Shown one piece after another: positions 4,643-54,576 of a stretch of 64,000 bases of DNA. The DNA is taken from assembly GCF_015670745.1 (NCBI RefSeq), contig NZ_JADPCH010000004.1:1-64000 (forward strand), written 5' to 3'. How positions within the stretch are numbered: the first letter of the stretch is position 1; each line of letters begins with the position of its first letter. The DNA comes from Collinsella aerofaciens (GTDB lineage Bacteria; Actinomycetota; Coriobacteriia; Coriobacteriales; Coriobacteriaceae). The notes below the pieces were generated by a model, which saw only the letters and a program-made list of their open reading frames with translations, was not told the DNA's origin and made no database searches. The translations under genes and the position numbers were made by a program.

Positions 4643-4866
4643 GGCACATAAGGAACGTCCCCAAGTGCCAAGTGGACTACCCAACTGCAAGTGACGACAT
4701 CGCTGGTTGAATCAACGTCAGCGAGCGACGTCCAGAGCGAACAAGTTGGCATGAAAAAGGCAGGGCATTGACCTTCTGGTCATGCCCTGCCTTTTGAATG
4801 ACAAATTGTCGCTCTGGGCGGCGCGCAGCGTCGAGCCGTTACGCGGGCTAGTAAGCCCGCGTAACT
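4643..4866 (+). repeat. Composite structured intergenic element, copy A
   Basis: This copy begins with a small hairpin (GGCAC ... GTGCC around a loop containing GAACGTCCCCA). A long imperfect hairpin follows from about 4704. Its inner stem is AAAAGGCAGGGCAT/ATGCCCTGCCTTTT and its tip is GACC-TTCT-GGTC with one bulged T. Then come GCAGCGTCG and a terminal hairpin GTTACGCGGGCT/AGCCCGCGTAAC ending at 4865. The stop codon of the minus-strand LCP gene starts two bases later. A degenerate second GTCCC-type box lies at about 4621-4636. The same architecture recurs at 20294, 36816 and 43865. Confidence 0.8.
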
Positions 4867-6102
4867 CTAATAGTTGGCCTCGTAGCCGTTACCGTCGCCG
4901 GTGGGCTCTTCGTAGTAGTCCGAATCGCTCGAATCGCCTGAGTCATCGGAATCGTCAGAGCTGACCGATGAAGTTGCGGTACCGTTTGCGTAGTCGTCAG
5001 ACGTGTTGTTGTTCAGGTCGCCGATCGTAGAGCTGGAACCGTCGGAAAGACCCATGGTGTTGGGACCCTTGGGGTCCTTGCCGGCATCGACGCGCTCCAT
5101 CATTTCCTTGAGCTCGTCCTCGTAGACAAAGACGTAGCTCACACCGTCGATCATGGTGCTGTCGTCGGCGTACGAGGGCAGGTTGGCCGAGTAGATACCG
5201 TCGACATCCATACCGCGCATGGCGTTGACCGTAGCCACGATATCCTGAACGCTCATATCGGTTACGAGCATATCGGACAGCGAATTAACCAGGCCAAAGA
5301 TCTTCGTGGCATCGAAGTTATTGAGAATCTGGTTGGCAAGGGCGCCAAGCACCTGACGCTGGTGGCGCATGCGCGTGTAATCGCCGTCGGCATAGGTGTA
5401 GCGGCAGCGGGCATAGGTAAGGGCGGTGGCACCGTCCATATGCTGCTGGCCAGCGGTAATCTTAATATCCAGGTGCTCGGGGTCGTCAACATCATCGGTT
5501 GCGTTAATGTCGATACCGCCAACCGAATCAATCAGCGCCTGCATACCGTCGAAGCTGACCTCGGCATAGTGGGAAATCTGAACACCGCACAGCTCGTTGA
5601 CCGCCTCGACCATGGCCTCGGCGCCGCCAACGGTATGGCAGGCGTTGATCTTCATGGTCTCGCCCTTGTACTCGACCTTGGTGTCGCGCGGAACGGAAAT
5701 GAGCGTCGCCTGCTTTTGCGTGGGGTCGATGCGTGCCAGGATAATCGAGTCGGCACGATACGTATCCTCGCCCGAACGGCCGTCGGTGCCAAGAAGCAGC
5801 ACGTAGAACGGATCCTTTGCCTCATCGGTGTCAACCAGAACCCGACGCAGATTGTCGGTAATGACATTAGAATCGCCGAGCTTGCCCATAATGGTGGCAA
5901 ACCACAGGCCGGCAGCGGTAGTGGCACTCAGCAGCACGCCAAGCACGACAATGAGCGCGACGTGACGAATCGTGTGGCTACGACGACGTTGGCGAGCGCG
6001 CTCGGAATAGCGAGCCACGTTATCGCGACTGTAGATCTTGGCCTGCGCACCAGTTGAGGGTCTTCGGGCGGTGGTATCCGCGAGGGGCTTTTTATTAAAC
6101 AT
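4867..6102 (-). CDS. LytR-CpsA-Psr (LCP) family cell-wall ligase
   Basis: A 411-residue membrane protein that probably attaches a glycopolymer to peptidoglycan on the outer face of the membrane. It has a basic cytoplasmic N-terminus and one transmembrane segment at about residues 47-72. The LCP domain follows, with LLLGTDGRSGEDTYRADSI, the Arg-rich ISVPRDTKV segment, YARCRYTYADGDYTRMRHQ and the NACHTVGG segment typical of the family. The last 60 or so residues are low-complexity Ser/Asp/Gly. The ATG at 6102 is preferred over a TTG two codons upstream. It lies 12 bp behind murA on the same strand, so cotranscription is likely. Its stop codon abuts repeat copy A. Confidence 0.88.
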   Translation of the reverse strand: MFNKKPLADTTARRPSTGAQAKIYSRDNVARYSERARQRRRSHTIRHVALIVVLGVLLSATTAAGLWFATIMGKLGDSNVITDNLRRVLVDTDEAKDPFYVLLLGTDGRSGEDTYRADSIILARIDPTQKQATLISVPRDTKVEYKGETMKINACHTVGGAEAMVEAVNELCGVQISHYAEVSFDGMQALIDSVGGIDINATDDVDDPEHLDIKITAGQQHMDGATALTYARCRYTYADGDYTRMRHQRQVLGALANQILNNFDATKIFGLVNSLSDMLVTDMSVQDIVATVNAMRGMDVDGIYSANLPSYADDSTMIDGVSYVFVYEDELKEMMERVDAGKDPKGPNTMGLSDGSSSTIGDLNNNTSDDYANGTATSSVSSDDSDDSGDSSDSDYYEEPTGDGNGYEANY

Positions 6103-6114
6103 AGGCAACCTGTA

Positions 6115-20293: not shown

Positions 20294-20534
20294 TAGTCAT
20301 TTAAGAACGTCCCCAATGACTACCTCTAAGGCGCCGCAGGTTGAGCATACCGCATCCGGAGCAAGGCAGCGCCGCAGGTAGAGGACGGACAGCGAGCGGG
20401 TCGCATTTGAGACAAGGTGACGTGAAACGAAAGGGCGCTGACCTTCTGGTCGCGCCCTTGAAGTTGAACGTCAGATTGTCCAAATGCGGCCCGCGCAGCG
20501 TCGGCTGGTCCGCCGTTCGGTAGAACGGCGGAAC
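20294..20534 (+). repeat. Composite structured intergenic element, copy C
   Basis: TAGTCATT/AATGACTA form a hairpin with a loop containing AAGAACGTCCCC. A spacer follows that has GCGCCGCAGGT twice and CCTCTA/TAGAGG at its ends, then GAGGACGGACAGCGAGCG. The long hairpin has AGCGGGTCGCATTTGA paired with TCCAAATGCGGCCCGC, an inner stem GGGCGC/GCGCCC and the tip GACC-TTCT-GGTC with one bulged T. GCAGCGTCG and a terminal hairpin CCGCCGTTC/GAACGGCGG end at 20534. The next base begins the stop codon of prfA on the minus strand. Confidence 0.82.
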
Positions 20535-21602
20535 CTACACAGCCTGTGCCAGCTTCTCGGCACGCTCGGCGGCGGCGAGTGCCTCGATGACGGTGCCGAG
20601 CTGATCGCCCAGGAGGACGCCGTTGTAGGTGGAGTTGAAGCCGATACGGTGATCGGTCACGCGGTCCTGGGGCTGGTTGTAAGTACGGATCTTCTCGGAA
20701 CGGTTGCCGTGGCCGATCTGGCTCTGGCGCTCGGCACCGAGCTCGGCCTGCTGCTTCTCGAGCTCCATCTCGTACAGACGGGCGCGCAGCATCTGCATGC
20801 AGACCTCGCGGTTCTGGATCTGGGAACGCTGCTCCTGCGACTGCACCACGGTGTTGGTGGGCAGGTGGGTAATGCGCACGGCGGAGTAGGTGGTGTTAAC
20901 GCACTGACCGCCAGGGCCGGAGGCGCAGTAGGTGTCGATGCGCAGGTCGGACTGGTTGATCTGAACGTCGATCTCCTCGGCCTCGGGAAGCACGGCGACG
21001 GTCGCCGTGGAGGTCTGAATGCGGCCCTGGGACTCGGTCTTGGGAACGCGCTGGACGCGGTGCACGCCGGACTCGAACTTCATGACGGAGTAGACGCGGT
21101 CGCCCTCGACCTTGAACTCGATGGACTTAAAGCCGCCTGCCTCGCTGGGGCTGGAATCGAGCACGGTGGTCTTCCAGCCGCGCGATTCGCAGAAGCGCTG
21201 GTACATCTTGTACAAGTCGCCGGCGAAGATGGCTGCCTCGTCGCCACCGGCGGCGGAGCGAATCTCGACGATGGTGTTCTTGTCGTCGTTGGGGTCACTC
21301 GGGATGAGCATGTACTTGATGTCTTCCTCGAGCTGGGGAAGCTTTTCCTCGTTCTCGGAGATGTCCATCTGGAGCATCTCCTTCTCGTCCGCATCGCTGG
21401 TGTCGCGGAGCATCTCCTTGGCGGCCTCGATGTCATCGAGCGCGCCGATGTACTCGCGCGAGGCGGCGATGAGGTCGGACTGGTGCGCGTACTCCTTGTT
21501 GAGACGCGTGAACTCCTTGATATCGGAGGCGACGGCCGGGTCAGAAAGCTTCTTCTCGAGCTCCTCGTAGGCCTTGATGATCTTTTCGAGCTTGTCGCGC
21601 AT
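20535..21602 (-). CDS. prfA: Peptide chain release factor 1
   Basis: A 355-residue class-I release factor for UAA and UAG. The GGQ loop is in CASGPGGQCVNTT (about residue 225). The stop-codon-reading PxT-type tripeptide is PKT in RVPKTESQGRIQT, which marks RF1 rather than RF2. The protein is continuous, without the programmed frameshift of prfB. The ATG follows AAAGGAG. It is the substrate of PrmC, encoded next on the same strand. Its stop codon directly abuts repeat copy C. Confidence 0.96.
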   Translation of the reverse strand: MRDKLEKIIKAYEELEKKLSDPAVASDIKEFTRLNKEYAHQSDLIAASREYIGALDDIEAAKEMLRDTSDADEKEMLQMDISENEEKLPQLEEDIKYMLIPSDPNDDKNTIVEIRSAAGGDEAAIFAGDLYKMYQRFCESRGWKTTVLDSSPSEAGGFKSIEFKVEGDRVYSVMKFESGVHRVQRVPKTESQGRIQTSTATVAVLPEAEEIDVQINQSDLRIDTYCASGPGGQCVNTTYSAVRITHLPTNTVVQSQEQRSQIQNREVCMQMLRARLYEMELEKQQAELGAERQSQIGHGNRSEKIRTYNQPQDRVTDHRIGFNSTYNGVLLGDQLGTVIEALAAAERAEKLAQAV

Positions 21603-22350: not shown

Positions 22351-25300
22351 CTACCGGTTCCGGCGCCGCAGGATAACGCCTGCGGCGATCAGCACCACCG
22401 CGCCGCCCGCGATGCCACCCAGGGCCATCGGCGACAAGCTGGTATCGCCCGTATACGGCAGACCCGGCTTCTCCTCCTTCGGCACCGGTGACTTGCTCGG
22501 CGGATTGGTGGGCGGCTCCGTCGGCGGGGTGGTCGGCGGCGTGTACGTGTTCTTGAACACCGGCGCCACGTCGCCATCATAGGTTACCGTCGCCACCAGA
22601 TGGCCCGCACCGTCGTCCGTCACCGTCACCGTTACCCGGTGCTCGGCCGCGTCGTACGTCACGTTCTTCTGACCGTCGTCCACCTCGGAGATGCTGTAGG
22701 CGTACGTTCCGGGCTTGTCGTACGAGATCGCCTCGAAGCCCACCGTGCCGTCCGCCGCGTTCTTTGCAGTCTGCAGCACCTTGCCGTCGGCATCCTTCAG
22801 CTGGAAGGAGAACTGCCCTTCCTTAAGGTCTTCGCCGCTCAGCACCTTGGAGGCCCCCAGCTTCACCTCAGTCGCGGCCGGCGCGTAGCTGTTGCTGAAT
22901 GCCACCGCATCCGCAGCCTTGCCGCCCTTGCTGTAGGCAACCTGCGTCTCCAGCGCGTGCGTCTCCGCATTCTCCGTCACCGTCACCGTCGCGGTAAAGA
23001 CCGTCGTGTCGTAGGTGACGCCGTTCGCCGTCGCCCCTGCCCGCTCGGACACGGTGTAGACGTACGTCCCCACCTTGTCCAGCTGCAGCGGCGCGAAGCC
23101 GAACGTGCCGTCGGCACCGTTCTGCACCGTCTGCACCACGTTACCGTCGGCGTCCTTCAGGTCGAAGGAGAACTCACCCTCGGCCAGGTCGCGGCCAGTC
23201 AGGGCCTTCGTTCCGGTAATCGTCGCCGTCGTTGCCGTCGGCGTGTAGGTGTTGGTGAAGGTCAGATCCGCAGCCGTCTTGTTCGCCGTCGCGATCAGCT
23301 GGCCGCTGCCGTCGTCGGTCACGCTCACCGTCACATCCAACACCGCATCGCTGTAAGTGATGGTGGCATCTTGGCCCGCAACCTCCTTCACCTGGTACTC
23401 ATGTGAACCAGTCGCAGTGTACGAGATGGCCTTGAAGGTAAACGCCTTACCCACGTTCGTGGTCCGGTCGATCACCTGCCCCGTGGCCACGTCAATCAGC
23501 GCGAACGTGAACTCGCCATCGGCGGGCGTCCGCGTGGTGGCCGGGTCGGCATTCTTAAGCACCTTGGTGCCAGAGATCTGGTAGGAGGTCTGGCCCGGCT
23601 GGTAGCTGTTCGCAAACGTCATGGTTCCGGGCGAGACGCCGTTCTCGGTACCCTCGCTCGGCTTCACCGTGGAGCTCTCTACCACCAGCTTGCCGTCGTT
23701 GTTGTCCTTCACCACGTAAGTCAGGGTGTACGTCTTGCCGGTGTAAGTCACGCCCGGCACGCCCGGCGCGTCGACCGTCGGCTGCACCTCGCGGACCGTG
23801 TAGGTAAAGGTGCCCGCATGGTCGAAGGTCAGCTTGTCGAAGGCAACCTTGCCGTCGGCATCGTTCTTCTGGGTCTGGATCACCGAGCCGTCAGACCCCA
23901 TCAGCTCGAAGGCGAAGTCTCCCTCCTTTAGCTGATAGCTGCCGTCGTGCACGTTAACGCTCTTGGTGAGGGCGATCGCACCGGAGTCCGTCGCCTTTGC
24001 CTCGTAGGTGTTGGTGAAGGTAGGCTTCGTGACATTCGCGCCGTCGTAGGCGACGCTCGCCTGCAGCGTGCCGGCATTGTCCGCAACCGTCACCACGGCA
24101 TGGTGCACCGCGGCGTCGTAGGTCACGCAGGCCAGATCGCCCTTCCGCTCAACTATGGTGTACTCGTGCGTACCCGGCTTCGCGTAGGAGAAGGCATCGA
24201 AGTTAACGCTTCCGTCCGCGCCGTTGGTCGCGGTCCGGACGGGCTCGGCCCCGGCAAGCTGCTCAGCCGTCAGGTTGCCCTCGTACACATCGAAGGTGAA
24301 CTCGCCGCCCTTGAGTACGATCGGCGTGTTGTCGTCCTTCTTCACGTAGCTCTTCTGCGCACCGAGGGCCAGGCCGGTCGCGGCCGGCTGGTAGATGTTG
24401 GTGAAGGTCTCCGGGCCTGATGTGCTCGTCACGATCGCCTTCGCATTCAGTGCTCCGTTCCCGCCGTCTGTGACCGTCACCGTATAGGTGAGGGCATGAT
24501 TGTCGTAAACCATGCCGGCCTCCGCGCCCGGCTGCTCCGCGATGGTGTAGGTAAAGTCCTTGCTCGCGGCGCCGTCCAGGTCGGAGAGCTCGAAGTCGCG
24601 CGTGAACTTCACCGTGCCATCGGCCTTGTTCGTCGCAGTGTCGAGCACGTTGCCGGCGGCATCCTTCAGGTCGAAGGTGTACTCGCCGCCCTTCAGCTTG
24701 GTGTCGTGCGTGAAGCCCGGCGCGACCGCAACGACCTTGGTCGCCGTCAGCTCCGCGGAGCCCTTTGCGGTATAGGTGTTCTTGAAGGTGGGGGCATCCG
24801 TCTTGCCGTCGTCGTAGGTGACGCTCGCCTCCAGCTTGCCGGCGTTGTCCACGACCGTCACCACGGCATGGTGCACCGTAGCGTCGTAGGTCACGTGGGA
24901 CAGGTCGCCCTTCTGCTCCGCGACGGTGTATTTGTGCTCGCCGGCCTTGGTGTAGTCGATGGCCGGGAAGGTAACGGTGCCGTCCTCGCCGTTCTCAGCG
25001 GTCCGGATGGGTTGCTTGCCCTTCAGCTGCTCAGCCGTCAAATCGCCCTTGTACAGGTTGAAGGTGAACTCGCCGCCCTTGAGCGCAGCCGGCGTGCTGT
25101 CGGACTTCACATAGGTCTTCTTCGCCGCGAGCGCCACCGAGGTCTCGGCGGGCTGATACGTGTTCTCGAAGGTCGGGGCATCGTTCTTGCCGTCGTAAGT
25201 GACGGTCGCCTTCGCCTTGCCACCCTCCGCCTTCACCGAGACGTGAACCTTCACCGCCTTGGTGTCGTAGGTGATAGTCGGATCGGCACCGACGTTCTCC

Positions 25301-28300
25301 TCCTTGAGTATGTAGTCGTACTCGCCGATGGTCAGACCGGTGAGAGCAAAATTGATCTTGCCATCCTTGTCGTTCTGGGCGAGCTGGACGGGATTACCCG
25401 TGGACGCGTCGCCTTGGTACAGGCCGAAGTTGAACGCGCCTTCCGTCAGGTCCTTGCCCGTGAGGGTCTTCTTTGCCTCGATGGTTGCATCGGCCGTCGG
25501 CTTCGCGTTGGTGAAGGTCGGCACAGCCTCATCGCCGTCGTAGGTAGCGGTTGCGTCCAGCGTGCCGTTCTTGTTATCGGTGACGCTGACCTTGACCTTC
25601 ACTTTCTGACCGTCGTAGACGATGGTCTGGTCGTTACCGGTAACTTCCTTGATGGTGTACTCGTAGTCACCGGACTCGGTGTAGTTGATGGGCTGGAAGG
25701 TAATGTTGCCGTTTTTGTCGTTTGTGCCGGTCTCAATGGGCGTGCCTTCCGTCTTGTCACCCTTGTACAGAGCGAACGAGAAGTCGTTCCCCGCGAGCGC
25801 ACCGCCCGTAAAGCGTTTCTTCGCCGCCAGGGTCACGGAACCCTTCGCGGCATAGCTGTTGGTAAAGGTGACGAGGTTCACCTTGCCGTTCTTGACCTCA
25901 AGCGTCTCGCTCTTGTCATCGCCGTCCTTTTCCACCGCCACGCCTGTGACAGTCAGCTTGGCATTCTTGTCCTCAACCTTCACCGTGACGGTGTAGGTGG
26001 AATCGTCCATCGTCCAACCGGCGTTCTGCACACCAGTCGTATTAGGATCGTCATCTTCCCCGTGGGCCTCGGTGAGCGTAAACGTGTAGTCGCCTGCCTT
26101 GTTGAATTGCATGCCGGAGAAGCTGAGGGGCTGACCGTCCTTGCTGGTGATCTTCCCCTCCGTGGTCTTGGACTCCGAGGATGTGTCGCCCTTCAGGCCG
26201 TCAGCCTTCAGATCGCCGGCGGCAATCTTATCCTTCGTCTCCGACGTGGCAGTCAGCGTGAACGAGAACTTCTTGTCCGTGCTCTCGGTGCCGGAAATCT
26301 TCTTCGTTACCTGCGGGGTCAGCTCGTCGCTGGCGACCGTCTTGTAGCTGTTCTCGAACGGAATAGTCGCCGTGTTGTCCTCGAGCGAGGCGCCGGGGGC
26401 AAACTTACGGTAATCGACCCTCTTGCCATCACTGTTCAGAACCGTCGTCTCGACTTTCAGTGTGCCGTCGCCGTTGTCGGACACTGCGATCTTGACGGTA
26501 TAGACCGTCTTGTCGTAGGTGTAGCCGGCGGGGACGGGCTTCGGCACGTTCTCTTCCACCCTGTATTGGTAGACGTTGGCGCGGCATTCATTGCTCACGT
26601 CGTCGTGTGTGAACTGCAAGCCCTTCGGCAGCAAGCTCACGGTCTTGGTGTCCCCGAGCTTCATCTCGGGAATCTTGAAGGTCTCCGCCCCGCCCGTGAT
26701 GTCGAGCTTCTTCGCCGCGGCGTCGGCGGAGGTCAGGATGAACTTCGTGCCATCCTGACCCTCGGCCTGATAGTCCTCGGGCGTCACCGTAAAGCTGAAT
26801 GTTCTGCTCGCATCACCGGTGCCGGTGAATTTCTTCTCAATCTGTAGACCGGCCTTCGCACCGTACTCAACCGTCTCGACCTTGTACTCGTTCTTGAACG
26901 GGACGATAGGCGTAGCGGGCTTCGCACCGCGACTCGAGACCGTCTGCACGTAGTTGGTCGTGGTATTAAGGCCCTTAATCGCCTCGGCCGTCAGCGCATC
27001 AACGTTGTCGCCCACGCCAACGAGCGCCGTCACGTCCGGGCCCTTCACGATGGTCGTCTTGGTGTAGAGCTGGCCTTTGTTGTCCGGATTCGGCTTCACC
27101 GCGATGAGCACGAAGGCATCACCGGGGTACTCGGTGTCATACGTGTATCCAGCAGCGTTGGCGTCATGTACCTCAGACACCTTGTACACGTACATCTTGT
27201 TGTAGCTCAGCTGCGTGAAGTTCATCTTCAGCTTACCGGACATCGTGGCGGTCTGCGTATCGTCACCGTCATCCTTGCCCACGGTGTTCGTGAACGACTT
27301 ATCGGAATCAACCGGCTCCGGGGCCTTCGTGCCGTTATACGTCATCGCCTCGATGGTGAACGGGAACCTGCCATTCTCCAGCGGGGTACCAACCAGAGTC
27401 TTGGTCACATCGATGCCCGCGTAGGTACCGGAGGCCGCATAGGTGTTGGTAAACGCGGCAGCACCCGTCACCTGCCGGTCGGCATCCGTCGTCGCCTGCT
27501 TGTTGTCGTACGCAACCGACGCGGTCAGCTTACCGGTATGCGTGCCGTTCTCGATATCGGTCACTGTGTACGTCACTGTGGACGTATGGTCGTCATAGCT
27601 GATGCCGGTCTTGTCCGCGTCGGTCGGCCTCGTCTCGTTCACTTTGAACGTATACACGCCCGGCCTGGTAAACACAAGGTCGCCCGTGCCGAACGGGGTG
27701 GTGCGCATCGCGTCGCCGGGACCTGCGATCTCGACCTTAGTCGTCAAATCGCCAGTCTCATCGGAGTCGGCAGCCTTCTTCTGAGTAACGACCTTGTTTT
27801 TAACCGCTTTCATCGTGGCGTCATCCGCTGGCGTCAGCGTGAAATCGAACTTGTCATCCTGCTCCCACGCACGCCCAGCCAGCGTCTTCTGCACAGTAAC
27901 CGGTGCCAACATCGTCTGGGCCACCGTGTAGGTGTTCTTGAACGGGATATATCCACCCGTGTCCGTCAGCTGCGTGCCGTCGGCCTTCCAATACGTGGCC
28001 GTGGAGGACAATTGGCCCTTGTCGTCGAGCGTGTTTTGCACCATCGCGTAGTACACGGTGGTGTCGTACGTCATGCCGCCCGTTGTCGAAGCATCGGAAC
28101 CAGCTTGCTCCGTCACCTGGTACACGTAGGTGGTGTTCTGGTCGGCAGCGGTGAACGTGATCTGCGGGAAAGCCGCAATGCCGCCGCCATCGTTCTCCGC
28201 GGTCGTCACGCCGTCGGCGGGCATCGGCGCGTCGTTCGCACTGACCGTGTAGCTCAGGTCATTGAACTTGATGGGGGCAGCCCCCACCGCGCTGTTGGCC

Positions 28301-31300
28301 AGGCCGCCCAGCGCCTTCAGCTCGAAGGTGAACTTGCCCGCGGCAAGCGGGTTGTCGCCCGACTCGTCGGTATACGACTTCTGCGCGTTAAATGAGATTG
28401 TCTTGGTGTCGGTGCTGAACTTGTTGGTGAACACCGCGACCTTGTTATCGACTGGCACGGCCGGGTCGTGGTGGGCGCCATCATCGTCGCCGTTGCGAGC
28501 CATAGTGACAACCGGCTCGGACAGCGTACCCCTGCCCGTGTCGTCCACCTGCACCGTCACCGTGTACCCGGCGCTCGAGTAGCCGAAGCCGGGCAGCCAG
28601 GACGAGTCATGCTCGTCGGGCGTCCGCTCGGCCACCGTATAGGTGTACGTGCCGGGCTTCTTGTACGTAATCTGGCCGAAGTCGAACTCATCACCATTGT
28701 TGACGGTCTTGACCACCTGGACGTATCCGGGCACGCCGGATACGCCCTTGTAGCCCCCGGGCATGGGCGTGCCCTTGGCAGCGCGCAGATAGATGTCGAA
28801 GCTGTCGGCCTTAGTCCACTTGCGGCCTTGAAGCACCTTCTGCGCCCGAATGCCGGTGAGCGTCACCGAAGACTTCACGCTGTAGCTGTTGGTGAACACC
28901 AGCTTGTTGTCTTCGGCCAGCGTGCCGTCGGTATTTTGCTTCGCGATCTTACCGGTGATGATACCATCGCCTACGCCGGTCAGATTCTTGTCACCCTGCT
29001 TGCGGCCGGTCAGCTTATAGCCCGCGGGCATCTCGTCTGCGCCGGTCAGCTCCTGCACCGTGTACTCGTCGCCCTCGCCAAGTCCGTACACGCGAATCGT
29101 CTCGTCGGCCTTGATGGTTTGCGAATAGCCATTTGTCAGGTCGAACACGTTGCCGACCTGCTTCTCATCGACGGTACCCGCCTTCTCGAACACCGCAGCC
29201 TTGTACGTCTTCCCCTTTGGCACGGTGAACTTAAAGGTAAATCCCGCGTCCTTATTGCCCGTCAGGCCATCGGGCACCACGACCTTCTTCGTCACCTCGA
29301 GGCTCGCCTCGCGTTCGTTCGCCACGCGCACGCAGGTGGCGCCCGTGAACAGGGCGTTCAGGTTCATGGCGCCCAAGTCGGCGCGGGCGCCCTTCGCCGT
29401 GATTCCCTTGGGCTGCTCGTCCTGGGTGATACCCATACGTATCCAGCCCGTCTCGGTCTCCAGGCGGTAGGGTTTGCCCTCCTCGGTGGGCCCATACTGG
29501 TACATGCGTCCGTTAGCGCCGTACTTGAGGTGCACTGTGTCGTCTGCACCCACGGGTTCGACATCGGTCCACGTCAGGTTGCCTTTAACATTGGTCTCGC
29601 CATTCGAGGTCTGCCGCGTACCCTTGATCCACGTGAGCGTGTTGTCGATGTCGCCCTCTGCGCCAAACTGGTCCAGACTCTTCATGAGCGCGCCCGGGCC
29701 CACGAACGTCGAAACGCCGTCATCGTCCGTACCAGCATCGGCATGGACGCCGTCATCGTCCACAATCACCTTGGTGAGCGTGTCGTTAAGCAGGAAGCCC
29801 TTGGGCGCCGAGACCTCCTTTAGGAAGTAGGTGCCATTCTTGAGCGGCTTGTTGCCGTCGCTCGTACACGGGAATATGCCCGCCCCTTCGAGCCGGACCG
29901 GGTTGTCGACCGACCCCGTCGTCAGGGTGTCATAGGGGCCCTGATCGTCCTTGGGCACAACCTTGCCGTTCGCGTCCGTTGTCGCCTTGTACAAGCCGAA
30001 CGTTGCGCCGTCTACGGGGTTGCCCTCGGTATCGGTTTTCTGCACGAACAGGCGATTCTGGATGTTCGTGACGAGCAGGCGCGTGGCGAACTGCCGCTTG
30101 AAGTTCGTGCCGTCTGCGATGTCGTCGCTGTACACGTGGACGGTGTTCTTAGGCGTCGCGTCGCCGATCGATCTCGCCGTTGTGTGGTAGATGGCCACCG
30201 TGTACTCGGCATCCTTGCGGGCCTCACCGCTCAGCAAGTAGTAGTACTTGGAGATGTCACCGGGCAGATTTTGAATCTCTACCTGGTACTGGCCGCTCGT
30301 GTTGAGCGTGAAGGCGTGCAGGTCCTTCTTCGCCGCCTCGATAGCGCCGGCCGTGCCCGGCTCCTTGGCGAGGGTGTATCCCGCTCCCGTCGATGGGTCG
30401 CCCGACACGGCGTACCAACTGCTCGGATCTTTGATGCTTGCGCTTTTATCGCGCTTGAGCACCACAGCGAACAGTATGCCGGAGTCCAGGCTGACAGCGT
30501 CGTTGGACTTCGTCAGGTCATCATTCGCCTTGTACACGATCGACGGCGCGGTGATGGTCTCCTTCGCGCCGGCGAACGCACCCGTCCGCCACACGGCGCT
30601 GCCCGCGTCCATACCGCCGCGGTTGATGATGACGCCGCCCGCGCCGTTCTTGTCGCTCGTGGGCTCGTACTCGAGGCGCATGCTGCCATCCGTCGTCGTG
30701 AGATTCGAGCGGTATCCCTTGGGCACGCTCGTCTCCTTCAGGAGGTAGTACTTATTGCTGTGATCCTTGTTGTAGAGATCGTCGAAGTTGATGACGCCGC
30801 TGCCATCGTCGTTCGTGAGCGTTAGGCAGCCGGCCTCGTCCGTGGTGCCGGAGCCGAGAAGCGCGCCCTCGGTTTTGAAGTCCTTATCGGTCTTATAGAG
30901 CTGGAACTCGGCACCCTGTACGAACTTGCCGTCCTGGTCGAACTTTATGATGTCGGACTCGGGCACCGTCACGAGGTTGAACTTGAGCTCCATGTTGGAG
31001 TAGAGGGCGCCGCGCTCCAGGTAGAAGAACTTGAGGGTGTGGTTGGTGCCGTCGGCGAAGGTGCTGCCGTACCACCTCGTGTCGCCGTCCTTGCCCGCAT
31101 TCTGGTACTTGCTCAGCAGCGTGCCGTCGCTCTTGCCGTTCACCTTAATGTCGCCCGTTTTAAAGTTTATGTTCAGACTCGCGCGGTCGTGAATACCGCC
31201 GATATCACCCACGAGGACATCGTCGATGAACACCCAGACATCATCATCGCCGGCGAACTCGAAGGTCATGTCCTCATCTTTGTTCGTCTTGCCGCCGTCG

Positions 31301-32133
31301 GACTGCACGAATCGCGTGGACATTGAGAGACCGAAGTGATGGTTGACGGGCTTGCCACCGTTGTAGCTCGCGGTGTTGTCTGCCGTGATGCCATTTTGGA
31401 CGAGCCGGTCGTTTTCCTCATTGAACACCTTGTCTGCCGCGTCGAACGGGAAGAACTGACCCTGGTGGGACGAATTGCCAACGCCCCCGGTGTCATAGAT
31501 GTCGAAGGCATTCTTGTTAGCGTTGTAGGCTGCGTAGTTGTGGGTGCTGTCATAGACGTAGTAGCCGCCCTGAGCCTGGAGGAGGCCCGTCACGCCAAAA
31601 TGGGACGTCTTGCCGGTCTGGGCAGAGGAATCGAACAGATAGCGGAGGGACTTGCCGCCCCAGGTATCGGAAAGCCGCGGGTAGCCGTCGAAAAGCGTGT
31701 TGCTGACGATGCCGGACTGCGGGTTCTCGCCGCCCGTCCAACGGTTGAGCGACTCACCACCCTGGCCGTCGTTAAACTGGAACCGGTGGTTTGCGTTGAT
31801 GCCGCCGTTGCCGGAAACCGACAGGTGATCATCGGGATTCACCCAGTAATCAAACAGGTTGATTGTTGTCCCCGAAGGCGAAATCGTCGTAACCGTGTGG
31901 TCCGAAAACGCCGCTTCCGCACGGGTCGGCAGGAAGAAACTCGCCGTCAGCGCGACGGCGAGGGCCAAAACAATCACATATGGCGAGACCGGGCGCAGCC
32001 CACGACGACGGCCATAAGACATGACGGACCACCGCTCGCGCGGCCGGTGTTCACCAGGAAGTTCCCTGCTTAGACACCCCCCCCCGGTAGCATTATTCAC
32101 GAGTCGAGACGTCGTCTCTCTGAGCTCCTGCAT
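22351..32133 (-). CDS. Giant LPXTG-anchored adhesin with 15 pilin-type isopeptide repeats
   Basis: About 3260 residues. A signal peptide lies around LALAVALTASFFLPTRAEA. A fibro-slime-like domain follows (DDDVWVFIDDVLVGDIGGIH), then two SpaA/Cna_B-like domains (VQGAEFQLYKT; VDGATFGLYKA) and a DUF5979-like domain. Fifteen tandem domains of the Spy0128/FctA pilin type run from about 28880 to 22540. Each has a Lys near its start, a Glu in a YxVxE strand and an Asn in a FxN(T/S)Y end, the set that forms intramolecular isopeptide bonds. A Pro-rich spacer, LPYTG, a hydrophobic helix and RRRNR form the sortase signal. The ATG at 32133 has the best ribosome site (GGGGAGGA); an in-frame ATG at 32022, after a G9 tract, is the alternative. 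It is probably surface-exposed and adhesive. No sortase gene is nearby. Confidence 0.9.
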   Translation of the reverse strand: MQELRETTSRLVNNATGGGCLSRELPGEHRPRERWSVMSYGRRRGLRPVSPYVIVLALAVALTASFFLPTRAEAAFSDHTVTTISPSGTTINLFDYWVNPDDHLSVSGNGGINANHRFQFNDGQGGESLNRWTGGENPQSGIVSNTLFDGYPRLSDTWGGKSLRYLFDSSAQTGKTSHFGVTGLLQAQGGYYVYDSTHNYAAYNANKNAFDIYDTGGVGNSSHQGQFFPFDAADKVFNEENDRLVQNGITADNTASYNGGKPVNHHFGLSMSTRFVQSDGGKTNKDEDMTFEFAGDDDVWVFIDDVLVGDIGGIHDRASLNINFKTGDIKVNGKSDGTLLSKYQNAGKDGDTRWYGSTFADGTNHTLKFFYLERGALYSNMELKFNLVTVPESDIIKFDQDGKFVQGAEFQLYKTDKDFKTEGALLGSGTTDEAGCLTLTNDDGSGVINFDDLYNKDHSNKYYLLKETSVPKGYRSNLTTTDGSMRLEYEPTSDKNGAGGVIINRGGMDAGSAVWRTGAFAGAKETITAPSIVYKANDDLTKSNDAVSLDSGILFAVVLKRDKSASIKDPSSWYAVSGDPSTGAGYTLAKEPGTAGAIEAAKKDLHAFTLNTSGQYQVEIQNLPGDISKYYYLLSGEARKDAEYTVAIYHTTARSIGDATPKNTVHVYSDDIADGTNFKRQFATRLLVTNIQNRLFVQKTDTEGNPVDGATFGLYKATTDANGKVVPKDDQGPYDTLTTGSVDNPVRLEGAGIFPCTSDGNKPLKNGTYFLKEVSAPKGFLLNDTLTKVIVDDDGVHADAGTDDDGVSTFVGPGALMKSLDQFGAEGDIDNTLTWIKGTRQTSNGETNVKGNLTWTDVEPVGADDTVHLKYGANGRMYQYGPTEEGKPYRLETETGWIRMGITQDEQPKGITAKGARADLGAMNLNALFTGATCVRVANEREASLEVTKKVVVPDGLTGNKDAGFTFKFTVPKGKTYKAAVFEKAGTVDEKQVGNVFDLTNGYSQTIKADETIRVYGLGEGDEYTVQELTGADEMPAGYKLTGRKQGDKNLTGVGDGIITGKIAKQNTDGTLAEDNKLVFTNSYSVKSSVTLTGIRAQKVLQGRKWTKADSFDIYLRAAKGTPMPGGYKGVSGVPGYVQVVKTVNNGDEFDFGQITYKKPGTYTYTVAERTPDEHDSSWLPGFGYSSAGYTVTVQVDDTGRGTLSEPVVTMARNGDDDGAHHDPAVPVDNKVAVFTNKFSTDTKTISFNAQKSYTDESGDNPLAAGKFTFELKALGGLANSAVGAAPIKFNDLSYTVSANDAPMPADGVTTAENDGGGIAAFPQITFTAADQNTTYVYQVTEQAGSDASTTGGMTYDTTVYYAMVQNTLDDKGQLSSTATYWKADGTQLTDTGGYIPFKNTYTVAQTMLAPVTVQKTLAGRAWEQDDKFDFTLTPADDATMKAVKNKVVTQKKAADSDETGDLTTKVEIAGPGDAMRTTPFGTGDLVFTRPGVYTFKVNETRPTDADKTGISYDDHTSTVTYTVTDIENGTHTGKLTASVAYDNKQATTDADRQVTGAAAFTNTYAASGTYAGIDVTKTLVGTPLENGRFPFTIEAMTYNGTKAPEPVDSDKSFTNTVGKDDGDDTQTATMSGKLKMNFTQLSYNKMYVYKVSEVHDANAAGYTYDTEYPGDAFVLIAVKPNPDNKGQLYTKTTIVKGPDVTALVGVGDNVDALTAEAIKGLNTTTNYVQTVSSRGAKPATPIVPFKNEYKVETVEYGAKAGLQIEKKFTGTGDASRTFSFTVTPEDYQAEGQDGTKFILTSADAAAKKLDITGGAETFKIPEMKLGDTKTVSLLPKGLQFTHDDVSNECRANVYQYRVEENVPKPVPAGYTYDKTVYTVKIAVSDNGDGTLKVETTVLNSDGKRVDYRKFAPGASLEDNTATIPFENSYKTVASDELTPQVTKKISGTESTDKKFSFTLTATSETKDKIAAGDLKADGLKGDTSSESKTTEGKITSKDGQPLSFSGMQFNKAGDYTFTLTEAHGEDDDPNTTGVQNAGWTMDDSTYTVTVKVEDKNAKLTVTGVAVEKDGDDKSETLEVKNGKVNLVTFTNSYAAKGSVTLAAKKRFTGGALAGNDFSFALYKGDKTEGTPIETGTNDKNGNITFQPINYTESGDYEYTIKEVTGNDQTIVYDGQKVKVKVSVTDNKNGTLDATATYDGDEAVPTFTNAKPTADATIEAKKTLTGKDLTEGAFNFGLYQGDASTGNPVQLAQNDKDGKINFALTGLTIGEYDYILKEENVGADPTITYDTKAVKVHVSVKAEGGKAKATVTYDGKNDAPTFENTYQPAETSVALAAKKTYVKSDSTPAALKGGEFTFNLYKGDLTAEQLKGKQPIRTAENGEDGTVTFPAIDYTKAGEHKYTVAEQKGDLSHVTYDATVHHAVVTVVDNAGKLEASVTYDDGKTDAPTFKNTYTAKGSAELTATKVVAVAPGFTHDTKLKGGEYTFDLKDAAGNVLDTATNKADGTVKFTRDFELSDLDGAASKDFTYTIAEQPGAEAGMVYDNHALTYTVTVTDGGNGALNAKAIVTSTSGPETFTNIYQPAATGLALGAQKSYVKKDDNTPIVLKGGEFTFDVYEGNLTAEQLAGAEPVRTATNGADGSVNFDAFSYAKPGTHEYTIVERKGDLACVTYDAAVHHAVVTVADNAGTLQASVAYDGANVTKPTFTNTYEAKATDSGAIALTKSVNVHDGSYQLKEGDFAFELMGSDGSVIQTQKNDADGKVAFDKLTFDHAGTFTYTVREVQPTVDAPGVPGVTYTGKTYTLTYVVKDNNDGKLVVESSTVKPSEGTENGVSPGTMTFANSYQPGQTSYQISGTKVLKNADPATTRTPADGEFTFALIDVATGQVIDRTTNVGKAFTFKAISYTATGSHEYQVKEVAGQDATITYSDAVLDVTVSVTDDGSGQLIATANKTAADLTFTNTYTPTATTATITGTKALTGRDLAEGEFSFDLKDADGNVVQTVQNGADGTFGFAPLQLDKVGTYVYTVSERAGATANGVTYDTTVFTATVTVTENAETHALETQVAYSKGGKAADAVAFSNSYAPAATEVKLGASKVLSGEDLKEGQFSFQLKDADGKVLQTAKNAADGTVGFEAISYDKPGTYAYSISEVDDGQKNVTYDAAEHRVTVTVTDDGAGHLVATVTYDGDVAPVFKNTYTPPTTPPTEPPTNPPSKSPVPKEEKPGLPYTGDTSLSPMALGGIAGGAVVLIAAGVILRRRNR
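22535..28880 (-). repeat. Fifteen tandem pilin-domain repeats inside the adhesin gene
   Basis: Repeat units of about 110-190 codons, diverged from each other but aligned by their Lys, Glu and Asn positions. The units at about 24000-24395 and 24770-25157 are clearly the closest pair, sharing runs such as HHAVVTV and KGDL in protein and long near-identical DNA stretches, which points to a recent duplication of that unit. Confidence 0.85.
32077..32085 (-). repeat. Homopolymer tract of nine G in the 5' part of the adhesin gene
   Basis: Nine C on the plus strand (nine G in the gene) lie between the ATG with the strong ribosome site (32133) and the ATG just before the signal peptide (32022). Nine keeps the two in frame; loss or gain of one base would not. 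Tracts of this length are classical sites of slipped-strand phase variation. Confidence 0.75.
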
Positions 32134-32319
32134 AATTTCCTCCCCAGTCACACGGCGACCTGCCCGGGTGCTCCCCGGGGGCCGAGGCAGTCTGGCACAT
32201 GCCCGCAGTCGTTCAAGGAATACCAACCCCAGCATATGTCTCTTAAGATATCTTAGTCTTATTCTATGACAGTTTTTGTCTCATTACCGATGAAATCGGC
32301 TCAGTCCCTTTGTCGCATG

Positions 32320-36815: not shown

Positions 36816-36990
36816 TAGTCGTAATGGACGTTCTTAAACGACTAGTCAAACAAGAACGTCCCCAACGACTAGGCATGAAAAAGGCAAGGCATAGACCTTC
36901 TGGTCATGCCTTGCCTTTTGAATGACAAATTGTCGCTCTGGGCGGCGCGCAGCGTCGACCGGCCCGCCGTTCGTCAGAACGGCGGAACCT
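36816..36990 (+). repeat. Composite structured intergenic element, copy B
   Basis: TAGTCGT...GGACGTTCTT and AAGAACGTCC...ACGACTA form a large palindrome at 36816-36871, with the GTCCCCA box on its right arm. The inner long-hairpin stem is AAAAAGGCAAGGCAT/ATGCCTTGCCTTTT, with the tip GACC-TTCT-GGTC and one bulged A. GCAGCGTCG follows, then a terminal hairpin CCGCCGTTC/GAACGGCGG ends two bases before the stop codon of the minus-strand aldose-epimerase-like gene. The outer left arm present in the other copies is missing, while the outer right arm is almost identical to copy A. Confidence 0.8.
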
Positions 36991-37884
36991 CTAGAGCAAA
37001 GTGACGCTAAAGCTGCGGACGTCCGTCTCGCCCGGCGCCAGCGTAATGGTGTTGACCTTGTGCTCAAAGACGTCGTCCTCGGTGTCCATGGTGGTGTGGC
37101 CGGTCCAGGGCTCGAGCGCCACAAACGGGGCGTCGTTGGCGGCAGACCACACGCCGATGTACTTAAAGCCCTCAAAGTCGATCTTGACGCCGTGACCCGA
37201 CTTGCGTCCGCGCAGGGTGAGCGTGGAGCCGGGGACGTCGGTGAACATGATGGCGTCGTTATCGAAGCTGCGGTGCGTGATGGGCAGCACGTCCGAGTTG
37301 TCGGGAGCCTTGTAGCTGCCCTCGAACGTCATGAGGCCATCGGGCGTGATGATGGGCGCCTCGTTGGTCCATGCCTCGGTAAATGCCAACTCGTAATCCT
37401 CGAACGCCTCGTCAACGGCGGCGGGGGCCGGCACGTTAAAGGCAGGGTGACCGCCCATCGAGAACGGCAGATCCACGTCGCCGGTGTTGGTGACGGCAAA
37501 GGTCTGGGTGAGCGTAGCGTCGCCGGTGAGTGCATAGGTCATGTTGAGCTTAAAGTGGAAGGGAAAGGCCTTGAGCGACTCGGGCGTATCGGTAATCTCG
37601 TACGTTACCGAGGAGCCGTCCTCCGAAACCTCGACCAGCTTGTGCTCGACAATGCGCGCGAGTCCGTGGCGCGGCATCTCGCAGGTACCGGCCGCAGACG
37701 TTGCCGTGTTGTTGCGCAGCGAGCCCACAATGGGGAACAGGATGGGCGCGTGCTTGCCCCAAAAGGCGGGGTCGCCCTGCCACAGATACTCGTTGCCGTT
37801 GAGAGCAAGGCTCGTGAGCTGGGCGCCCATGGAATCGATGGCCGCGGTGAGGCCGCCGCGCTTGATGGTAGTGACGGTAGACAT
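36991..37884 (-). CDS. Aldose 1-epimerase-like (LacX-type) protein
   Basis: A 297-residue beta-sandwich protein of the galactose mutarotase superfamily. WGKHAPILFPIVGSL and CEMPRHGLAR (catalytic-type His) are near residues 50-85. SMGGHPAFNVP holds the second conserved His, and VALEPWTGH the active-site Glu. The short form without extra domains resembles LacX or YeaD rather than GalM. The substrate is probably a sugar or sugar phosphate. The ATG at 37884 follows GGAGGAAG. It is monocistronic, and its stop abuts repeat copy B. Confidence 0.85.
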   Translation of the reverse strand: MSTVTTIKRGGLTAAIDSMGAQLTSLALNGNEYLWQGDPAFWGKHAPILFPIVGSLRNNTATSAAGTCEMPRHGLARIVEHKLVEVSEDGSSVTYEITDTPESLKAFPFHFKLNMTYALTGDATLTQTFAVTNTGDVDLPFSMGGHPAFNVPAPAAVDEAFEDYELAFTEAWTNEAPIITPDGLMTFEGSYKAPDNSDVLPITHRSFDNDAIMFTDVPGSTLTLRGRKSGHGVKIDFEGFKYIGVWSAANDAPFVALEPWTGHTTMDTEDDVFEHKVNTITLAPGETDVRSFSVTLL

Positions 37885-37997
37885 GCTACTTCCTCCAAAA
37901 GTAAACAATAGTGTCGAGGGCTATTGTCCCACTCTTGGCGGCGGGACGGGACGGCAGGCGATTATTGAGTAGCCATAGCGGAATGAGCGGCGAGCGC

Positions 37998-43864: not shown

Positions 43865-44083
43865 ATCCCTTTTCCTCCGTCCCCAAGGGATTGCATGCAC
43901 CGAAACGGACCGTGGCGGAATCACAGGTTGAGGACGGACAGCGAAAACGTTCCTAAGCGAGCAAGGTGGCGTGAAAGAGGAGGGCATAGGCCTTGTGGCC
44001 ATGCCCGACGATTGAACGCCAGATTGCCGCTTAGGAGCGTTTGCAGCGTCGAGCGGTTACGGCGTTTGGCAAAACGCCGTAAC
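43865..44083 (+). repeat. Composite structured intergenic element, copy D
   Basis: ATCCCTT/AAGGGAT form a hairpin with a loop containing CCGTCCCC. GGTTGAGGACGGACAGCGA follows. The outer stem is AACGTTCCTAAGCG paired with CGCTTAGGAGCGTT. The inner stem is GGGCAT/ATGCCC, with tip GGCC-TTGT-GGCC (covaried from GACC/GGTC) and one bulged A. GCAGCGTCG is conserved, and the terminal hairpin is GTTACGGCGTTT/AAACGCCGTAAC. This is the only copy without an abutting stop codon. It ends 17 bases before the -35 box of the marR promoter. Confidence 0.82.
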
Positions 44084-44691: not shown

Positions 44692-46498
44692 AACCCTCAT
44701 GGGAAGCATCCGCGATTACAAGAAGGTCACGATCGCCACGCCGCTGCTGGTGCTTGGCGAGGTGCTCTGCGAAATGATGATCCCGTTTATCACCGCCGAC
44801 ATGATCGACGCCATCAAAGACGGTGCCACCGTCGCCCAGATGCTTCCCACCGCAGGCTTTTTGGTGCTCATCGCACTGACGTCGCTCGCTTTTGGTGCCG
44901 CTGCCGGCGTCACCTGCAGTCATGCGAGCTGCGGCTTCGCCAAGAACCTGCGTCACGACCTGTTCTACAAGATCCAGACGTTCAGCTTTGCCAACATCGA
45001 TGAGTTCTCGAGCTCCTCGCTCGTCACCCGCCTCACCACCGACATCAACAACGTGCAGCAGGCCTTTATGATGCTCATCCGCATCGCCGTGCGCGCGCCG
45101 CTGGTGTTGGTCTTTGCCTTTGCCATGGCCTACGCCATGGGCGGCAGCGTCGCCATGGTCTACCTGGTCATCATTCCGCTGCTGGGCTTTGGCCTGTTCT
45201 TTATCATCTATAAGGTGCGCCCGATCTTTGCCCGCGTGTTCCGCAAGTACGACGCGCTCAACGAGTCCGTCGAGGAAAACGTCACCGGCATGCGCGTGGT
45301 CAAGAGTTACGTGCGCCAGGACTACGAGAAAGAGAAGTTCGCCACCGCCGCGCGCGACGTCCAGATGGACTTCACCCGCGCCGAAAAGCTGCTCGCCTTC
45401 AATAACCCCATGATGAACATCTGCGTCAACGGCGCGTTCGTCGTCATCATCTACCTGGGCTCCGAGCTCATCATCACGAGCCAGGGCACCTTGTTCGACG
45501 TGGGCCAGCTCTCCTCCATCTTTACCTATGGCTTCCAGATCCTTATGAGCCTGATGCAGCTGTCGATGATCTTTGTCATGGTGACCATGGCCGACGAATC
45601 GGCGCACCGCATTACCGAGGTGCTGGCCGCCGAGCCCACGATCGCCGATCCCGCCGAGCCCGTGCTCGAGGTTGCCGACGGTTCCATCGACTTTGACCAC
45701 GTGAGCTTTAAGTATTCCGCGCATGCGAAGCGCCAGGCGCTCGACGATATCGACCTGCACATTAAGAGCGGCGAGACCATCGGTATCATCGGCGGTACCG
45801 GCTCGGCCAAGTCCACGCTTGTAAACCTCATCGCCCGTCTGTACGACGCCACCGAAGGCACCGTGCGCGTGGGCGGCATGGACGTACGCGACTACGACCT
45901 GGACGCGCTGCGCCACCAAGTGGCCATGGTGCTACAGAAAAACGTGCTGTTTAGCGGCACCATTGCCGAGAACCTGCGCTGGGGCGACCCGAACGCCACC
46001 GACGAGGAAGTCCGCGAGGCGGCACATCTGGCCTGCGCCGATGAGTTTGTCGACGGCTTCCCCAAGGGCTATGACACCTGGATCGAACAGGGCGGCTCCA
46101 ATGTCTCGGGCGGTCAGAAGCAGCGCCTGTGCATTGCGCGCGCCCTGCTGCGTCGCCCCAAGATCTTGATCCTGGACGACTCCACCAGCGCCGTCGACAC
46201 CAAGACCGACGCCAAGATTCGCGCAGGGCTGGCAAGCTATCTGCCCAACACGACCAAGCTCATCATCGCCCAGCGCATTAGCTCCGTGCAGGACGCAGAC
46301 CGCATCATCGTCATGGAGGGCGGCCGTATCGCGCAGATCGGTAACCACGACGAGCTGCTCAAGACGAGCGAGATCTACCGCGAGACCTTCACCTCGCAGA
46401 ACAAGATGTCTGCCGAGGGCGAAGAGGCCGTCGAAGCCGACACCGAGGCATCCGCAACACAAGCTCAGACCCAGGAAGGAGGCGAGGCACATGAGTAA
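44684..46498 (+). CDS. Heterodimeric ABC exporter, degenerate-site subunit
   Basis: 604 residues: a six-helix exporter transmembrane domain (about 1-310) and an ATPase domain (about 335-570). Walker A is GGTGSAKST, with Ala for the usual Gly before Lys. The signature is NVSGGQKQR. Walker B ends ILDDSTSAVD, so Asp replaces the catalytic Glu, and the switch His is Gln in IIAQRISS. This combination marks the non-catalytic partner of BmrCD or TM287/288-type exporters. The C-terminal 35 residues are acidic. It overlaps both marR and the second exporter gene by eight bases. Confidence 0.92.
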   Translation: MIKTLMGSIRDYKKVTIATPLLVLGEVLCEMMIPFITADMIDAIKDGATVAQMLPTAGFLVLIALTSLAFGAAAGVTCSHASCGFAKNLRHDLFYKIQTFSFANIDEFSSSSLVTRLTTDINNVQQAFMMLIRIAVRAPLVLVFAFAMAYAMGGSVAMVYLVIIPLLGFGLFFIIYKVRPIFARVFRKYDALNESVEENVTGMRVVKSYVRQDYEKEKFATAARDVQMDFTRAEKLLAFNNPMMNICVNGAFVVIIYLGSELIITSQGTLFDVGQLSSIFTYGFQILMSLMQLSMIFVMVTMADESAHRITEVLAAEPTIADPAEPVLEVADGSIDFDHVSFKYSAHAKRQALDDIDLHIKSGETIGIIGGTGSAKSTLVNLIARLYDATEGTVRVGGMDVRDYDLDALRHQVAMVLQKNVLFSGTIAENLRWGDPNATDEEVREAAHLACADEFVDGFPKGYDTWIEQGGSNVSGGQKQRLCIARALLRRPKILILDDSTSAVDTKTDAKIRAGLASYLPNTTKLIIAQRISSVQDADRIIVMEGGRIAQIGNHDELLKTSEIYRETFTSQNKMSAEGEEAVEADTEASATQAQTQEGGEAHE

Positions 46499-48410: not shown

Positions 48411-48534
48411 TTCGGCTCGCCGAGATGGCCGATTTGTCGCTCATTCGTCGGGCATGACCCTAAGGTCAATGCCCTCCTCTTTCGGGGCAAATCGACTCAT
48501 CTCAACGACCCAAATACAATGCACCGCAACGAAT

Positions 48535-50956: not shown

Positions 50957-51028
50957 GTCAATCTCCCGTTTTCGCGCCTGTGAACGCATGGCGCCACAGG
51001 GGGTCGTTTTGGCAGGTCACGCGCTCGA

Positions 51029-51057
51029 TTGAGATAAACTGCATCGCACAGTATAAA
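51029..51057 (+). promoter_or_regulatory. Promoter of the SDR-MFS-oxidoreductase cluster
   Basis: A -35 TTGAGA (51029-51034), a 17-base spacer and a -10 TATAAA (51052-51057) lie in the divergent region with the LysR gene. The long leader to the SDR start (about 125 bases) leaves room for regulator binding downstream as well. Confidence 0.65.
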
Positions 51058-51188
51058 CCTACGGTTAACGCCATTCTAACAAATATGCAATTCACCTGCG
51101 CAAATGCAAAGCATACGATAGCCAGCGAAAACCACGTGGGTCGGTTAATGGGAGCGACCCACCGGGAGGCACAAGAAGGGAAGTTCCT

Positions 51189-52070
51189 ATGAGCAATTGG
51201 CTTAAGCTCGAGGGCGATGTCTGCGCCGTGACCGGCGCGCTCGGCGGTATGGGCGTCGAGATTTGCCGCGAGTTCGCCCGCAACGGCGCCAACGTCGTCC
51301 TGCTCGACCTGGACGAGGAGAAGGTCAAGGCCGCAGCCGCCGACCTCGCCGCCGAGTTTGGCATCCACGCCGAGGGCTACAAGATGAACGCCACCGACGA
51401 GGCCGAGGTTCAGGCCGCCGTCGATGCCACCATCGCCGACTTCGGCCGCGTCGACGTCCTTGTCAACACCGCCGGCATCCTGCGCTTCGCCGCCATGGAG
51501 GACCTGCCGCTGAGCGACTGGGAGCAGGTGCTCAACGTCAACCTCACCGGTTACTTCATCACCTCGCAGCGCTTTGGTCGCGAGATGATCAAGGCCGGCC
51601 AGGGTCGCCTGGTGCACATCTCGACCGTTGCCAGCCACTCCCCCGAGACGTTCTCGGGCGTGTACAGCTCCACCAAGGCGGGCGTCAACATGATGTCCAA
51701 GATGCTGGCTGCCGAATGGGGCCCCTACGGCGTCCGCTCCAACTGCGTCGAGCCTTGCTTCGTTAAGACCCCGATGTCGGCCAACTTCTACGCCGACCCC
51801 GAGGTCGAAAAGAGCCGCAGCCGCCTGATCGCCACGCGCCGCATCGGCGAGGTCAGCGATATCGCCAACGCCGTCATGTTCCTGGCGTCCAAGCGCTCGG
51901 ACTTTACCACCGGCGACGCCATCAAGGTCGACGGCGGCTTCTCCAACATGATGGGCGACCTCACCGCCAAGCCCGGCGGCCGTCGCGCCTATGCCGACAA
52001 CTACCTTAAGAACAAGGGTGTCGAGCTCTGGTCCGATGAGTCCGGCGTCGCCAAGCCGACTGACCAGTAA
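51189..52070 (+). CDS. Short-chain dehydrogenase/reductase
   Basis: 293 residues. The NAD(P) loop is TGALGGMG (residues 15-22), and an Asp at the end of strand 2 (LLDLDEEK) favours NAD(H). NTAG is intact, as are the catalytic Ser in HISTVASHS and the Tyr-Lys pair YSSTK. The C-terminal 35 residues past VDGGF extend beyond the usual SDR end. It is probably an oxidoreductase for a sugar acid or polyol. First gene of the cluster, starting behind GGGAGG-type sequence. Confidence 0.88.
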   Translation: MSNWLKLEGDVCAVTGALGGMGVEICREFARNGANVVLLDLDEEKVKAAAADLAAEFGIHAEGYKMNATDEAEVQAAVDATIADFGRVDVLVNTAGILRFAAMEDLPLSDWEQVLNVNLTGYFITSQRFGREMIKAGQGRLVHISTVASHSPETFSGVYSSTKAGVNMMSKMLAAEWGPYGVRSNCVEPCFVKTPMSANFYADPEVEKSRSRLIATRRIGEVSDIANAVMFLASKRSDFTTGDAIKVDGGFSNMMGDLTAKPGGRRAYADNYLKNKGVELWSDESGVAKPTDQ

Positions 52071-52136
52071 ACCAACCCGACAGGGAGGACCCGCAGACAT
52101 GCCTGTTCCTCCCCCGTATCGATTAGAAAGAGTCCA

Positions 52137-53393: not shown

Positions 53394-53400
53394 TTTTACC

Positions 53401-53433
53401 GATGCGACAAAGGGACAGCCCCTTTGTCGCATC
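53401..53433. repeat. GACAAAGGGAC-type palindrome inside an operon
   Basis: GATGCGACAAAGGGAC and CCCCTTTGTCGCATC form a near-perfect stem in the 69-bp gap between the transporter gene and the next oxidoreductase gene. It may lower expression of the distal gene or protect the upstream mRNA. Confidence 0.85.
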
Positions 53434-53462
53434 CCACCGGTCACCAGTATTAAGGAGTCGAA

Positions 53463-54503: not shown

Positions 54504-54576
54504 TGCCTTAAGAGCGACCGCGGCAGAAACCCCATGCCGAACCCTTCGGTCCGTCACCAACAAGCCCCTCTTCTTT

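Follow-up and report, generated by a model that had tools for sequence, protein, structure and literature searches.

A long covarying hairpin repeat with exchangeable modules past gene ends in Coriobacteriia

The window, i.e. the whole stretch of 64,000 nucleotides of Collinsella aerofaciens DNA that we analyzed, carries four copies of a structured element on its + strand and a fifth, degenerate one on the other strand (Table 1). The stems, loops and terminal hairpins described for the four copies in an earlier note were all found, and each of the four has a much more stable fold than shuffled sequence does (z -8.7 to -10.9). Copy C lacks its 5' outer arm, in place of which stands a paired GTCCCC-type hairpin, and it is 94% identical to copy A over 36864-36958. 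Copy D is an exception in placement, as gene calls made with a home-made codon model put it in a divergent position, with no opposite-strand gene stop after the long hairpin. The fifth copy, absent from that earlier account of four, lies directly past the stop of a + strand gene (46491-48410).

Table 1. Hairpins in the 64-kb window (H, long hairpin; T, short terminal hairpin; scores in bits are those of covariance model R1)
Feature	Position	Strand	Remarks
GTCCCC-loop hairpin by copy A	4643..4669	+	independent RAYT-type repeat
Copy A, H	4717..4833	+	boxes CAGCGAG ... GCAGCGTCG; 119.1 bits; fold
Copy A, T	4838..4865	+	GTTACGCGGGCT-AGTA-AGCCCGCGTAAC; adjoins stop of LytR-CpsA-Psr gene 4867-6108 (-)
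GTCCCC-loop hairpin by copy B	20294..20322	+	independent repeat
Copy B, H	20388..20503	+	128.9 bits; fold
Copy B, T	20509..20532	+	TCCGCCGTTC-GGTA-GAACGGCGGA; adjoins stop of prfA 20535-21602 (-)
GTCCCC-type hairpin at copy C	36816..36871	+	
Copy C, 5'-truncated H	36872..36958	+	R1 match 36846-36957, 55 bits
Copy C, T	36964..36985	+	CCGCCGTTC-GTCA-GAACGGCGG; adjoins stop of aldose-epimerase gene 36991-37908 (-)
GTCCCC-loop hairpin by copy D	43865..43891	+	independent repeat
Copy D, H	43937..44051	+	117.9 bits; fold; gene calls
Copy D, T	44056..44083	+	GTTACGGCGTTT-GGCA-AAACGCCGTAAC
Fifth copy, degenerate H, no T	48411..48511	-	54.3 bits; sequence

The true unit of the observed composite is H, usually with T next to it, and together they form a repeat of ~160 bases (H-T) that lies past the ends of dozens of genes. 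H is an imperfect hairpin of ~116 nt (115-117) whose ends are formed by a CAGCGAG and a CGCAGCGTCG box. Read on the + strand, the CAGCGAG box is followed by an outer stem of 14 pairs, a small internal loop of the GGT/AGA type, a further stem, tandem G.A pairs (TGAA opposite TGAA), an inner stem and a tip of the C(TTNN)G type, from where the second half mirrors the first and closes with the CGCAGCGTCG box. The inner stem often has one bulged base. The single unpaired base that the earlier note placed below the tip is indeed common, but copies with GTAC-type tips pair through this position. In most copies T begins ~3-6 nt past the CGCAGCGTCG box; its stems mostly have 9-16 bp (usually 10-13) and nearly all of its loops are GNNA or GNA (GGCA, GTCA, GGTA, GTTA, GTA and GGA were seen). 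H without T and T without H both occur, the latter for instance at C18:2227, C42:8954 and C2:55844. Across genera, H is often preceded by a CAGGTY motif ~10-12 nt ahead of the GTCAGCGAG box; this motif may also belong to the conserved element.

The GTCCCC-loop hairpin had been joined to H and T in the earlier note as one composite of four parts, a proposal that did not survive the search of the own genome. About 20 places match the GTCCCC hairpin alone, others match the long hairpin alone or the terminal hairpin alone, and a GTCCC motif is found within 250 nt upstream of just 12 of the 20 strong H copies, which rules it out as a part of the H-T unit. GTCCCC-like hairpins flank RAYT genes, one in the host genome (L079) and four in relatives (L203, L205, L210 and L214). 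Another RAYT gene of the host genome (L078, at G000:C33:4301-4621) is flanked by CCTGCCAAAA..GGGACAGG..TTTTGGCAGG hairpins, and similar ones recur elsewhere; these apparently represent a second RAYT-type repeat of this genome.

We built a covariance model (R1) from 17 copies of the own genome (2.1 Mb), where it gives 22 matches of at least 79 bits, together with weaker ones and some echoes of the same palindromes on the opposite strand. These H copies form subfamilies, some of which are more than 90% identical at unrelated genes. Covariance-model search also recovered the further copies in related genomes to which the earlier note had looked, and in large number. Matches are present in 41 of the 45 genomes of the genus, many of which have 35-50. 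Close relatives reach ~50 per genome, and other genomes have few matches or none. Over the class Coriobacteriia, R1 matches occur in 100 of 298 genomes and in 31 of 125 genera belonging to several families; 16 of the matching genomes were searched again. A broad pattern of the boxes run over all genomes returned mostly chance matches, from which R1 retained Coriobacteriia alone: of 80 prokaryotic loci with nothing but the two boxes in common, the matches at E<1e-6 (a rough value, as the calibration was shortened) fall solely in named Coriobacteriia, including Gordonibacter, Adlercreutzia, Slackia, Paraeggerthella and Enteroscipio. None of 80 viral contigs with a box match scores with R1, the exact loop pattern has no match in viral contigs, the repeat has no blastn match in phages, and the sole 'plasmid' match is a 0.9-Mb replicon of Collinsella aerofaciens, and on these grounds we rejected carriage by phages or plasmids.

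The pairing of H was assessed on 72 copies from other genera, none of which had been used to train R1. Pair cells are kept paired in 90% of cases, as opposed to 32-47% when the partners are slid, and double changes are found at all 39 pairs. Covariation beyond phylogeny is strong, with 21 of 38 pairs at E<0.05 under a null in which substitutions were resimulated along a FastTree tree of the copies (our own approximation of R-scape, not R-scape itself); just two other column pairs are significant, and both adjoin helix pairs. The compensatory change that the earlier note had read from the window copies is thus shown pair by pair in the set from other genera. It is not the sole source of variation, since whole modules are also swapped, and much of the difference among the window copies is difference between subfamilies exchanged in this way.

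The note had attributed the pattern to a folded RNA or single-stranded DNA, which was right as far as it went; the folded strand can now be specified as the + strand, antisense to the neighbour gene. With RNA energies, 70/72 and 49/49 copies have the better fold on the + strand, and with DNA energies 71/72 and 48/48 do, while T stems alone have no consistent energy preference for either strand. G-U exceeds A-C overall (146:52 and 41:9). We rejected this wobble bias as proof of RNA, as the excess is modest at isolated mismatches (41:21 in the distant set) and suggestive at most. The order of GNA/GNNA loops fits DNA hairpins better than the GNRA of RNA. Since most T loops break the GNRA rule and fit this DNA pattern, we lean slightly towards single-stranded DNA, and not RNA, as the molecule that folds, but do not count this as a result.

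H copies have a regular position with respect to the following gene, which by calls of the home-made codon model is on the opposite strand in 62 of the 69 classifiable copies from other genera and in 45 of 48 from Collinsella. The opposite-strand stop lies 30-36 nt past H when T is present and ~1-6 nt past it when T is missing. Copies also abut RNase P RNA and a tRNA, and the target is therefore a transcript end and not a stop codon. The gene upstream of H is often on the - strand. There is no U-tract after T in either direction, and a terminator scan of copies B and C gave no terminator-like site in or near them; in some H subtypes a T-run is visible by eye after the inner stem. A promoter scan of three regions revealed no consistent promoter, and the one promoter-like site does not adjoin H.

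We compared the occupancy of two such sites, downstream of prfA and pyrE, among genomes. Downstream of prfA the unit is present in all 21-22 closely related genomes, in some of them truncated or cut by contig ends, and eight other genomes of the genus are without it. Three T types (CCGCC, ACGCGG and ACGGCG) and H types 1, 3 and 5 occur here in six combinations, and the H type requires 9 changes on the prfA tree, where the minimum is 2. The pyrE site is occupied in 20 of 21 genomes with the same kind of T/H exchange, and in one genome (G022) a new T-H stands next to a T that has decayed. A single chromosomal site thus exchanges its T, H and leader types, and half-H leaders are present, including at prfA and pyrE. 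Part of the variation at prfA may reflect allele exchange between strains. As the alternative modules belong to the subfamilies dispersed in these very genomes, modules must also have passed from site to site. Moreover, nested remnants of older copies exist in the form of half copies and tandem 3' halves; this indicates nesting, in which new modules would land in or beside old ones.

Some individual loci have unusual arrangements. In genome G231, one or several 3' halves of H, each beginning at the tip, stand in tandem behind a full H (L278, 599-713, +) and share a CCGAACC linker, and half-hairpin units with this linker are also found in L276, L295 and L296 of the same genome. At L188 (genome G025, 3' of pyrE), the place of T-H is taken by a T-like start and a stem resembling the H tip, then CTCTTTCT, a terminator-like hairpin that also resembles the H tip.

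Two candidate engines were considered and rejected. RAYT (PF01797) is absent from five genomes that nonetheless have 7 to 22 H matches each (G231, G108, G155, G226 and G144), and was rejected as the mobilizer. Near 32 RAYT loci we found no H other than one partial copy. Within the genus the presence of H and RAYT correlates, all six RAYT-free genomes being without strong H. Reverse transcriptase (RVT_1, PF00078) is absent from ten H-bearing genomes, i.e. most of those tested (G000, G002, G025, G008, G231, G155, G195, G260, G226 and G144).

The earlier note knew of no named family with this layout, and the comparison with known families agrees. Rfam gave no match at gathering score and nothing credible at a relaxed threshold, and no description of the repeat was found in open-access text exclusive of supplements; within open-access text and Rfam, we thus found no family to which H-T would belong. 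It has much in common with REPs. The CGTC-tagged REPs, none of which is listed from Actinobacteria, have 8-9 bp stems whose first pairs are A-T, a loop of 4-5 and a CCA tail, and no dedicated transposase is known for them (Di Nocera et al., 2013, PMC3733652). They share with H-T a palindromic form tagged by CGTC on one side, an intergenic location 3' of genes and the lack of a known transposase. However, their tag is next to the palindrome, whereas in H-T the CGTC lies ~5 nt (mostly 3-6) from the T stem, which usually has 10-13 bp, has no CCA tail and is preceded by a 116-nt hairpin.

BIMEs of the REP-RAYT system (Nunvar et al., 2010, PMC2817692) resemble H-T in being mosaics of hairpin modules downstream of genes that turn over fast and preserve their palindromes as the sequence changes, and H-T is, like GTAG-REPs and BIMEs, an interspersed mosaic of this kind at gene 3' ends. 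Unlike BIMEs, it has no GTAG tag (its boxes being CAGCGAG and CGCAGCGTCG) and no alternating short REPs. Nor, apart from the one partial H, is a cognate RAYT flanked by H or T; it is the GTCCCC hairpin that has its kind on the flanks of RAYT genes. We therefore regard H-T as a new variant of the REP/BIME class that is a member of neither named REP super-family. By analogy, H also recalls integron attC sites (e.g. PMC6393395), folded single-strand hairpins of ~100 nt that are recognised by structure, lie by stop codons and are strand-specific, but no core ends (R'/R'') were seen by eye in H-T, which is dispersed singly and not in cassette arrays. Palindromic candidate structured RNAs from gut bacteria of human microbiomes, some of them REP-like, were described by Fremin and Bhatt (2021, PMC8040213), whose main text names a single motif from Collinsella, 51 bp upstream of ribosomal protein L7/L12; the structure set of that study could contain part of H-T.

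With about even confidence, we propose that H-T is a non-autonomous mosaic repeat family of Coriobacteriia, of the REP/BIME class, whose active form is the folded + strand, antisense to the neighbour gene. The fixed length of ~116 nt, the conserved internal loops and end boxes, the freely covarying stems and the restriction to one class all speak for it. A trans-acting enzyme would recognise the folded strand via its shape, loops and boxes, and would copy or exchange modules, preferentially into or beside existing copies, which would explain sites that stay occupied while their content changes. Against this proposal, neither RAYT nor reverse transcriptase was found as a mobilizing enzyme, and the stable occupancy of the prfA and pyrE sites leaves no clean pair of empty and filled sites there. 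Furthermore, common descent could account for part of the strand bias in fold stability, the G-U over A-C bias is modest at isolated mismatches, and a host function could also lie behind the tight spacing to stops. We also consider it possible, though rather doubtful, that H-T is a class-wide folded-strand recombination substrate, whose modules a putative enzyme, neither RAYT nor reverse transcriptase, would swap at short boxes into gene-end copies.

A host function would be served if T and H, as a stem-loop at the stop with a long duplex behind it, protected or terminated the transcripts of the adjacent gene, with recombination swapping them and any version working. The fixed spacing to the stop, the copies directly after RNase P RNA and tRNA, the almost constant occupancy at prfA and pyrE and the lack of any other terminator-like site near copies B and C are consistent with such a 3'-end element. 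It is nevertheless unlikely, as no U-tract follows T in either direction, the gene's transcript does not carry the conserved loops and the best fold, which belong to the other strand, copy D is divergent, and the prfA site is empty in eight genomes of the genus. Alternatively, H-T might be transcribed antisense to the gene as a + strand non-coding RNA acting in trans or on the gene 3' end. Covariation, the G-U excess, the UUCG-type tips and the tandem G.A pairs would suit an RNA, but we hold this to be quite unlikely given the lack of a consistent promoter in the three regions scanned, the dozens of copies in which every stem differs, the T loops that are mostly GNYA and not GNRA, the upstream gene often on the - strand and the absence of an Rfam match.

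If a reverse transcriptase returned copies of that RNA to gene ends, in the manner of a retroposon, complete 3' ends and truncated 5' ends would be expected, as are seen in copy C and in T-only copies; this reading, already weakened by the absence of RVT_1 from ten H-bearing genomes and by the existence of 3' half copies, is barely credible. It is also improbable to a marked degree that a passive DNA process accounts for the element, i.e. that the arms stay complementary through inverted-repeat correction, template switching and conversion among old repeats, with neither function nor mobilizer. Intrastrand templating can homogenise the two arms of a long palindrome, and tandem arrays of half copies do occur. 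However, H conserves its tandem G.A and GGT/AGA internal mismatches, its boxes and its loops while the stems vary, and arm correction would have the opposite effect; a fixed length and placement at gene ends also argue against it.

Few small repeats of bacteria are as common as REP-like ones, and we know of no mobilizer for the families that lack RAYTs. As a non-autonomous repeat, H-T would stand out among them by a much longer and richly covarying fold and by its confinement to one class of gut bacteria. The independent exchange of hairpin modules at single occupied sites makes the exchange mechanism directly testable, and R1 is ready for use in the annotation of Coriobacteriia genomes. H-T is also a caution for covariation-based RNA discovery.

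Two further features of the window concern coding capacity. An ORF of 1216 aa (50958-54608, -) has no Pfam match at 1e-5 and may not be a gene, since the codon model preferred + strand ORFs over this interval. The other (22351-32235, -) encodes a giant repetitive adhesin, a surface protein of 3294 aa with 15 FctA (Spy0128-like isopeptide) domains and a SpaA domain.
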